Shown here: piece by piece, positions 16,758 through 61,687 of the stretch
How the letters are laid out: each line of letters begins with the position of its first letter
How positions within the stretch are numbered: the first letter of the stretch is position 1
DNA from: Deltaproteobacteria bacterium
GTDB taxonomy: Bacteria; Myxococcota; Myxococcia; Myxococcales; SZAS-1
Length of the DNA: 64,000 nt
Assembly: GCA_018266075.1 (NCBI GenBank)
Contig: JAFEBB010000010.1
Coordinates: 1 to 64,000 of the forward strand
Direction: 5' to 3'
Position numbers and translations under genes: made by a program
The notes under the pieces: model-generated
What the model saw: only the letters and a program-made list of their open reading frames with translations
The model's database searches: none
Told to the model about the DNA's origin: nothing

Positions 16758-17267
16758 TCAACCACTTCGGTCGGCGTTAGAAACGCCTCCTACATCCACC
16801 ACGAGGGTGTGTCGGGCGGAGGAGTGCGGATAGTCCTCGGGTTTCGTCACCAGACCGGCTCGAATGGGATTCAATCGAACGTAGTCCACCGCTACTTGGA
16901 GGCCCGCTTCGTCTCGGATCACGCGATCGTGGAAGCTCTCTTGCCAGAGCCGGCCTTCGGATCCTCGAAGTCGATTGATCCGCAGCCCTGAGAATTGCTT
17001 CCACGACTTCATCACCGTCCGAATGTTGTGTGGCGCCTGGCATTGAATGACGAGATGCACGTGATCGGGCATGACCACGTACGCATGGATTCGTGCACGC
17101 CCCATACGATGAAGCCACCCAAGCGATTCGACCACCAGGTCTGCCTCGCTCACAGAGAGCGCCTGGAAGCGATTCTCGAGGCAGGTCGTCACGAGGTGAA
17201 TCAGCCCGGGCCGATACCATCGCCCTCTGCGCAGACTGCGCTTCCCACTTCGGTCATCAACGAACAT
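16758..17267 (-). CDS. REP-associated tyrosine transposase (RAYT)
   Basis: This 169-residue protein belongs to the Y1/IS200-like HUH superfamily. It shows LIHLVTTCLENRFQAL, the HUH metal-binding motif HVHLVI (VVMPDHVHLVIQC, near residue 64), a WKQFSGLRINRL segment, and WQESFHDRVIRDEAGL. The catalytic Tyr is expected in VDYVRLNPIRAGLV. RAYTs recognise and move short REP palindromes and are usually single-copy and host-tamed. I chose ATG 17267, whose product fits the family. The frame stays open to about 17405, but that extension would cross the right repeat. An upstream terminator-like hairpin (17328-17373) would block read-through into the gene. The matching REP copies at 18782-19695 and 61625-61650 are probable substrates. 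Confidence 0.85.
   Translation of the reverse strand: MFVDDRSGKRSLRRGRWYRPGLIHLVTTCLENRFQALSVSEADLVVESLGWLHRMGRARIHAYVVMPDHVHLVIQCQAPHNIRTVMKSWKQFSGLRINRLRGSEGRLWQESFHDRVIRDEAGLQVAVDYVRLNPIRAGLVTKPEDYPHSSARHTLVVDVGGVSNADRSG
16769..16804 (-). repeat. Left REP-type terminal repeat of RAYT element
   Basis: This is the inverse of 17280-17315 with one mismatch. It contains a GGCG/CGCC stem and the GTAGGAGGCG word that parallels GTGGGAGGCG in the dispersed REPs. It encodes the residues LVVDVGGVSNADR near the C-terminus of the transposase. Confidence 0.8.
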
Positions 17268-17279
17268 GCCTTCGCCTCT

Positions 17280-17315
17280 TCGTGGTGGATGTAGGAGGCG
17301 TTTCCAACGCCGACC
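17280..17315 (+). repeat. Right REP-type terminal repeat of RAYT element
   Basis: This is the 36-bp inverse partner of 16769-16804. The core is GGCGTTTCCAACGCC, a 6-bp stem with a 3-nt loop. The dispersed copies carry GGCGCTTCCCAGCGCC, so the stem differs by compensatory changes (C to T paired with G to A). Confidence 0.8.
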
Positions 17316-17327
17316 GGAACCCTCGCG

Positions 17328-17685: not shown

Positions 17686-18792
17686 ATGGCCGACAAGAAG
17701 TGGATCCTGCACGTCTGCGGCGCGCGCCCGAACTTCATGAAGGTCGCGCCCATCTGGGCCGCCATCGCCGCGCGCGACAAGCTGGGCCAGAAGCTGCTCC
17801 ACACCGGCCAGCACTACGACGAGAAGATGAGCGACGTGTTCTTCGCCGAGCTCGGCCTGCCCGTTCCCGACATCTCGCTCGGCGTGGGCTCGGGCACGCA
17901 GGCGGAGCAGACCGGCAAGGTGATGGTGGCGCTGGAGAAGGTGGTGGCCGAGCAGCGGCCGGATCTCATCTCCGTGGTGGGCGACGTGAACAGCACGCTC
18001 GCGGCCGCGCTGGTGGCGGCGAAGGCGTGCATTCCCATCGCGCACGTGGAGGCCGGCTTGCGCAGCTTCGATCGCGCGATGCCCGAAGAAGTGAACCGCG
18101 TCGTCGTGGATCGGCTCTCGGATCTCCTGCTCACGCCCTCGGCGGATGGCGACGAGAACCTGCGCCGCGAGGGCGTGGATGCCTCGCGCATCGTGCGCGT
18201 GGGCAACGTGATGATCGATACCCTGCGCAAGAACCTGCCCGCAGCGCAGGCTCGGCCGATCTTGCGCGAGCTCGGGTTGAACGCGGGCGGCTACGCGTTG
18301 TGCACGCTGCACCGGCCGTCGAATGTGGACGACGCGGCGGTGCTCGGACGGATCCTCGATGCGCTCGGCGCCATCTCGCAGAAGCTGCCCCTCTTGTTTC
18401 CGGTGCACCCGCGCACGCGGAAGATGCTGGGCGCGTTCGACGCGAAGCTGAAGGCGTGGCCGCAGCTCCGGCTGTGCGAGCCGCTCGGGTACCTCGATTT
18501 TCTGGCGCTCACCAGCCAGGCCAAGCTGGTGCTCACCGACTCGGGCGGCTTGCAGGAAGAGACCACCGCGCTCGGCGTGCCGTGCTTGACCGTGCGCGAG
18601 AACACCGAGCGCCCGGCGACGGTGACCGAGGGCACGAACACCATCGTGGGAACGGATCCCAAGCGGATCGTGGCCGAAGCGGAGGCCGTGCTCGCCGGAC
18701 GCGGGAAGGCCGGGCGCGTGCCCGAGCTGTGGGATGGGAAGACGGCCGAGCGGATTGCAGAGACGTATGAGCAGTTCTTGGGTCGGCGCTAG
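17686..18792 (+). CDS. wecB: UDP-GlcNAc 2-epimerase (non-hydrolysing)
   Basis: This 368-residue enzyme interconverts UDP-GlcNAc and UDP-ManNAc for surface polysaccharide synthesis in the cytoplasm. Family landmarks are complete: VCGARPNFMKVAPIW at the N-terminus, LLHTGQHYDEKMSDVF, VVGDVNSTLAAAL, HVEAGLRSFDRAMPEE, TLHRPSNVDD and LTDSGGLQEETTALG. The ATG at 17686 (MADKKW) gives the standard length. An in-frame extension to 17527 lacks similarity. The stop codon lies inside a REP palindrome (18782-18807). The gene stands apart from the main polysaccharide block. It feeds HexNAc precursors together with the dehydrogenase/epimerase pair at 21500-23830. Confidence 0.93.
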   Translation: MADKKWILHVCGARPNFMKVAPIWAAIAARDKLGQKLLHTGQHYDEKMSDVFFAELGLPVPDISLGVGSGTQAEQTGKVMVALEKVVAEQRPDLISVVGDVNSTLAAALVAAKACIPIAHVEAGLRSFDRAMPEEVNRVVVDRLSDLLLTPSADGDENLRREGVDASRIVRVGNVMIDTLRKNLPAAQARPILRELGLNAGGYALCTLHRPSNVDDAAVLGRILDALGAISQKLPLLFPVHPRTRKMLGAFDAKLKAWPQLRLCEPLGYLDFLALTSQAKLVLTDSGGLQEETTALGVPCLTVRENTERPATVTEGTNTIVGTDPKRIVAEAEAVLAGRGKAGRVPELWDGKTAERIAETYEQFLGRR

Positions 18793-18807
18793 GAAGCGCC
18801 TCCCACA
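18782..18807 (-). repeat. REP palindrome overlapping wecB stop
   Basis: GTCGGCGCTAGGAAGCGCC followed by TCCCACA, in minus orientation. The TAG inside it serves as the wecB stop codon. It forms an inverted pair with the copy at 18855. Confidence 0.75.
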
Positions 18808-18854
18808 AACCCGGGTTCACCACTCGTCGTCGACCCACTTGGTGGACTGAGTTT

Positions 18855-18879
18855 TGTGGGAGGCGCTTCCCAGCGCCGA
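18855..18879 (+). repeat. REP palindrome
   Basis: TGTGGGAGGCGCTTCCCAGC followed by GCCGA. The core stem is GGCGCT/AGCGCC with loop TCCC. It is inverted relative to 18782-18807, giving a two-REP (BIME-like) unit after wecB. Confidence 0.8.
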
Positions 18880-18886
18880 TTCACTC

Positions 18887-18903
18887 GGAAGCGCTTCCCA
18901 CAA
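18887..18903 (-). repeat. Truncated REP palindrome
   Basis: GGAAGCGCTTCCCACAA lacks the outer GTCGGCGCT arm and has one change from the other copies. GGAAGCGCTTCC is itself a perfect 12-bp palindrome. It appears to be a decayed copy. Confidence 0.6.
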
Positions 18904-18924: not shown

Positions 18925-18949
18925 TGTGGGAGGCGCTTCCAGCGCCGAC
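18925..18949 (+). repeat. REP palindrome at 3' end of NTase gene
   Basis: TGTGGGAGGCGCTTCCAGCG followed by CCGAC; it has one C fewer in the loop than its siblings. It ends 3 bp before the stop of the nucleotidyltransferase gene. Its left flank (TGGATCC) is shared with the copy at 19670. Confidence 0.75.
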
Positions 18950-19596: not shown

Positions 19597-19622
19597 GTCG
19601 GCGCTGGGAAGCGCCTCCCACA
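19597..19622 (-). repeat. REP palindrome 5' of NTase gene
   Basis: GTCGGCGCTGGGAAGCGCCT followed by CCCACA, in minus orientation, 17 bp upstream of the nucleotidyltransferase start. It is a full-length copy with a perfect GGCGCT/AGCGCC stem. Confidence 0.8.
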
Positions 19623-19669
19623 CACCCACTTCACCAACTGGGTCACCTGCAAGTGGGTCACCTGGATCC

Positions 19670-19695
19670 TGTGGGAGGCGCTTCCCAGCGCCGAC
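19670..19695 (+). repeat. REP palindrome at 3' end of HNH gene
   Basis: TGTGGGAGGCGCTTCCCAGC followed by GCCGAC. Its last base is the first base of the HNH stop codon region. It forms an inverted pair with 19597-19622, and GGGTCACCTG direct repeats lie between them. Confidence 0.8.
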
Positions 19696-61624: not shown

Positions 61625-61650
61625 TTGTGGGAGGCGCTTCCCAGCGCCGA
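61625..61650 (+). repeat. REP palindrome upstream of gmd
   Basis: TGTGGGAGGCGCTTCCCAGC followed by GCCGAT, identical in its stem to the copies at 18855 and 19670, about 42-44 kb away. It lies in the 136-bp gap between divergent gmd and the zinc-ribbon gene. Confidence 0.8.
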
Positions 61651-61687
61651 TTGGAACCGTCCGACCGATCTGGCGCACAATCGGTCC

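Follow-up and report, generated by a model that had tools for sequence, protein, structure and literature searches.

The window analyzed here, a stretch of 64,000 nucleotides, carries a gene for a REP-associated tyrosine transposase (RAYT) between two inverted hairpin-bearing repeats. Related REP hairpins, single or in inverted pairs (REPINs), lie nearby and at one distant position. The features are as follows.

16758..17267, minus strand: RAYT (TnpA_REP) coding sequence, 169 amino acids from ATG, with the HUH motif HVH and, within YVRLNP, the catalytic Tyr129
16768..16804, minus strand: left terminal inverted repeat, a subfamily B REP; core 16770-16794, stem GGCGTT/AACGCC, GTAG tag
17280..17316, plus strand: right terminal inverted repeat, a subfamily B REP; core 17290-17314
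18782..18807, minus strand: subfamily A REP, left half of REPIN 18782-18880; a T-loop variant that gives a TAG stop to the upstream epimerase gene
18855..18880, plus strand: subfamily A REP, right half of REPIN 18782-18880
18887..18901, minus strand: degenerate REP GTGGGAAGCGCTTCC (GTGGGAAGCGCTTCCGAG...), 3' stem half lost
18925..18949, plus strand: subfamily A REP with a 3-nt loop
19597..19622, minus strand: subfamily A REP, left half of REPIN 19597-19695
19670..19695, plus strand: subfamily A REP, right half of REPIN 19597-19695; the minus-strand gene at 19695 ends in a TAG whose G is the first G of this REP (gene strand)
61626..61651, plus strand: subfamily A REP, singleton

A gene for an AbiEii-like nucleotidyltransferase (Pfam PF08843; 18953-19579, minus strand) sits between the pair of REP clusters closest to the RAYT.

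The assignment of the gene as a RAYT, made previously in a sequence-only reading, is confirmed by the match of its product to NCBIfam model NF047646 (REP_Tyr_transpos), which scores 120.4 bits with a cut-off of 80. The IS200 model scores 35 bits, under its cut-off of 55, and Pfam Y1_Tnp matches weakly. In an alignment with 14 homologues, residues H69, H71, Y129, N133, and P134 are invariant, and thus the HVH motif and candidate catalytic tyrosine of a Y1 transposase, both noted in that reading, are upheld. An AlphaFold2 model of the protein (mean pLDDT 85.7) finds its top Foldseek match in 4er8 (E 8e-11), the Escherichia coli RAYT in complex with a REP hairpin, which is also the nearest solved chain by sequence in a phmmer search. 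The two proteins share the Y1 fold and aligned HUH-region and Y---NP motifs, with Tyr129 falling on the Tyr of YIYINP in the phmmer alignment, but they are only about 23% identical. Their REPs differ as well, in that the E. coli stems are bulged whereas the stems described here are perfect and 6 bp long, as in the group 3 REPs of PMC8266576. The last ~12 codons of the gene cross the left repeat, and the C-terminal residues that they encode are predicted to be disordered. The GC3 of the RAYT gene is 0.65, compared with 0.92-0.94 for neighboring genes, and this atypical composition suggests a foreign origin.

Each terminal arm (16768-16804 and 17280-17316) spans 37 nt, one more than first claimed, and the two are 97% complementary with a single mismatch. 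Their pairing indicates that the proposed 547-bp unit is real, and each arm bears a GTAG hairpin. An IS200/IS605 insertion sequence, expected to be a multicopy unit with subterminal hairpins and without terminal inverted repeats, is disfavored, as the unit is single copy and has 37-bp inverted termini. A search of the 7.84-Mb assembly found one copy of the RAYT, although a second might have been missed because the assembly is in 166 contigs and is 96.6% complete. A Y1 gene on contig C28 was examined as a second mobilizer and set aside, being IS200-type with no REP flanks.

Seven occurrences of the hairpin pattern are found in the window, where shuffled sequences give an expectation of 0.00. 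Seven dispersed copies with the stem GGCGCT/AGCGCC, distinct from the GGCGTT/AACGCC of the RAYT ends, had been proposed. Both stems are as described, and six of the dispersed copies carry the full hairpin; the copy at 18887 is degenerate, and the last begins at 61626 rather than 61625.

Genome-wide, the exact hairpin pattern occurs 46 times, far above chance as judged by a reversed control that yields 0. About 72 cores are retrieved by a covariance model for which 18 variants were aligned (MAFFT, with N in the loop), and 57 of the 70 full cores are tagged GTGG or GTAG. The intergenic dispersal anticipated from the window holds for 67 of the 72 cores, even though coding sequence makes up ~87% of what was scanned; the remaining 5 overlap the edges of gene calls, which came from a simple codon-based caller trained on the window. 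The expected pairing is likewise evident: among 23 neighboring pairs of cores less than 200 bp apart, 17 have their GTRG heads inward and none has the reverse arrangement (binomial P about 1e-6). REPs in inward doublets are also better conserved than singlets (0.945 versus 0.868; permutation p 0.008).

Dense clusters of eight REPs, each in about 6.5 kb and comparable to the cluster beside the RAYT, are present at C40:12106-18586 and C18:40512-46335. Within the 17 REPINs the consensus is matched by the right member (by contig coordinate) in 15 and by the left in 7, and the exact hits fall 31 on the forward and 15 on the reverse strand; as contig orientation is expected to be arbitrary, both biases may be due to chance.

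In 28 of the 40 cases where a stop codon faces the REP tail, the tail end lies within 12 bp of that codon. All four standard-length REPs with T at the last loop position (18782 in the window; C5:51887, C47:45823, and C47:53153) are located at the 3' ends of genes. The T changes TGG to an in-frame TAG, and thus the REP donates the stop codon of the gene. In four other REPs, the window copy at 19670 included, the first G completes a TAG.

Folding gives the expected hairpin for single REPs and a long hairpin for REPINs (99 nt, -40 to -43 kcal/mol, z about -9 to -10). The sequence-only reading had described compensatory stem differences. These amount to one base pair within the window and extend to three genome-wide, with double-sided changes among the 18 variants at 3 of the 6 stem pairs (pair 2 GC/CG, pair 3 CG/GC, and pair 5 CG/TA). 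Pairing is possible in 95% of alignment cells compared with at most 55% in slid controls, a figure that leans towards the structure because loop gaps were partly placed by it. The pair 2 and pair 3 changes are already seen when just the ungapped 26-nt copies are considered.

The two REP subtypes proposed earlier, one at the RAYT termini and one dispersed, correspond to subfamilies that we term B and A. Copies of subfamily A (TGTGGGAGGCGCTTCCCAGCGCCGAC) are abundant and vary little, 32 of them being identical over 26 nt. Subfamily B, represented by the RAYT-end arm GTGGTGGATGTAGGAG, has about 14 complete copies and variable stems (GGCGTT, GGCGCT, GGGGCT, and GCGGCT, each with a matching partner); the arm GTGGTGGATG precedes TAGGAG. 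Matches to the B-arm pattern with one mismatch are about as frequent as in controls and therefore were counted only if a hairpin follows. The RAYT-end type is indeed present at other loci, with a hairpin identical to that of the RAYT ends at C85:30348 and about a dozen copies that have the same arm but other stems. Subfamily A shares the GTRGGAG-hairpin-GAC core with B. Nonetheless, A and the RAYT ends are not alike: A has a GTGG rather than GTAG tag, one different stem pair, and a different loop length, and it lacks the outer arm. Given these differences, we can only infer that the RAYT recognizes it. Two bridge forms are known: C27:54894 joins the RAYT (B) arm to the dispersed (A) stem, and thus makes A and B one superfamily, and C32:55107 combines an A core with the remnant of an arm.

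The REP family occurs in this genome alone out of 193 from the phylum. Single exact-pattern strays in two of the 192 others (G111 and G149) have no GTRG tag and were dismissed as chance. Searches of other contigs with the RAYT protein return distant homologues only (22-39% identity). Two RAYT homologues in other families of the same order have hairpins of their own. In G019 (L136) the RAYT homologue is accompanied by 29-bp inverted GTAG hairpins of different sequence, and in G082 (L147) by adjacent GTAG hairpins, with 38 matching hairpins in that genome. Compared with the system described here, the stems of both (GCGGGGC...CCCCGC) are entirely different, RAYT identity is about 32-43%, and there is no cross-occurrence of hairpins. 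With each of these genomes carrying distinct GTAG hairpins, RAYT-hairpin pairs look lineage-specific, as described in gammaproteobacteria (PMC2817692, PMC3733652). In one family of the order, four genomes (G029, G035, G044, and G047; L137-L145) have many NHVH-type Y1 homologues, several of them with flanking inverted repeats or tandem GGGGACAC-type motifs, and these resemble the published TIRYT elements (GGGG[AT][CG]A[CG]; PMC6006769).

The arrangement shares several features with gammaproteobacterial REPtrons (Nunvar 2010, PMC2817692; Di Nocera 2013, PMC3733652), namely a single RAYT between two inverted GTRG-tagged hairpins, copies scattered through intergenic space, stem variation that is compensatory, and several subfamilies of hairpin in each genome. 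It differs in its new hairpin sequence, its host in the Myxococcota, its modest copy number (about 72), and an abundant dispersed type (GTGG, no outer arm) that is unlike the RAYT-end type. Similarly, the REPINs of Pseudomonas fluorescens SBW25 (Bertels and Rainey 2011, PMC3116915) are inverted REP pairs with a variable spacer that form a long hairpin, and there too doublets are better conserved than singlets. Copies are far fewer in the present genome, where spacer length varies from 23 to 74 nt. A text search of the literature found no paper joining RAYT, REP sequences, and Myxococc, and the group goes unmentioned in two key surveys. Occurrence in the host lineage is nonetheless unsurprising, since GTAG repeats are reported in one of these surveys from all proteobacterial divisions, alpha to epsilon, and delta-proteobacteria are listed as carriers of TnpA_Y1 subclasses (PMC6006769).

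We conclude that the system is best explained as a REPtron, in which a single-copy RAYT lies between inverted REP hairpins and REPs and REPINs are spread through the genome, mobilization in trans included; we assign this reading a probability of roughly 0.8. In kind, such a REPtron/REPIN system is ordinary, and its repeat sequence is new and lineage-specific. RAYTs cut single-stranded DNA beside GTAG hairpins (PMC8266576), and REPtrons studied previously reportedly do not transpose whole (PMC6006769), which means that an empty site for the unit is not a requirement of this reading. By analogy with the family, the RAYT would bind the GTRG-tagged hairpin in single-stranded DNA, cleave beside it via Tyr129, and excise and re-insert REPINs of both subfamilies in trans. 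Many of the surviving insertions would lie just after stop codons. The ends of the RAYT belong to the sparser, more divergent subfamily B, and the recently expanded copies are A.

The dispersed copies were likely mobilized by the RAYT of the window, and most simply both A and B would be its substrates. We infer the link to A from the shared tag, hairpin position, and tail, the intermediate forms, and the finding of no other RAYT. A tentative extension, which we consider possible but on balance doubtful, is that one RAYT drives both subfamilies while the expanding A has drifted from the B termini, with recognition having shifted to an independent, parasite-like hairpin population.

It is also conceivable, though rather unlikely, that the RAYT serves B only and that A was spread by another RAYT, since lost or hidden in an assembly gap. 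A RAYT usually pairs with a single REP type (PMC6006769), and the two subfamilies are set apart by their tags, the lengths of their loops, and the outer arm, with B sparse and divergent next to the 32 identical A copies. However, intermediates link A and B, the 96.6% complete genome yielded no second RAYT, and in E. coli one RAYT serves three REP subtypes (PMC6006769; PMC8266576). Somewhat less probable still is a domesticated or dead RAYT remnant with a REP population that is now inert. The many decayed B copies would fit this explanation, as would the suggestion of foreign origin from GC3, but the open frame, the full set of intact catalytic residues, the confident predicted fold, the terminal repeats that are still 97% identical, and the 32 identical A cores all argue against it. 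A classical IS200-type element that moves whole, with dispersed hairpins that are unrelated terminators or host-selected, would account for the 28 of 40 tail-side stop codons within 12 bp but is highly improbable, because the RAYT is single copy and because the GTRGGAG tag and GAC tail shared outside the stem, the inverted doublets, and the absence from other genomes of the phylum are unexpected of host-selected terminators.

Seen as a REPtron, the locus extends the RAYT/REPIN system to a lineage for which no described REPs were found in the literature, and indicates that different families of an order have RAYT-hairpin pairs of their own. The contrast between A and B offers a natural case for learning which hairpin features a RAYT needs. 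In addition, the REPs of this genome both donate stop codons and act as landing sites for another element.

The latter is an unassembled, multicopy, insertion-sequence-like element that splits several B REPs at one point. Its left junction (GTGGTGGATGTAGGAG|CAACTGTAATC...) is found on C1, C8, C85, and C121, and its right junction (...CCCTATAAGCA|AGGGGCTTCC...) at C18:43863 and on C82, C91, C112, and C133. These loci are L123-L126 and L160-L164, and the interior of the element is missing from the assembly. The IS110 transposase at C10:74551 was a candidate for the REP-targeting element, but the junction ends were not found nearby. AG is apparently duplicated at the insertion, and this AG repeat together with the REP target recalls ISPpu9 of the IS110/IS492 family (PMC8450116).
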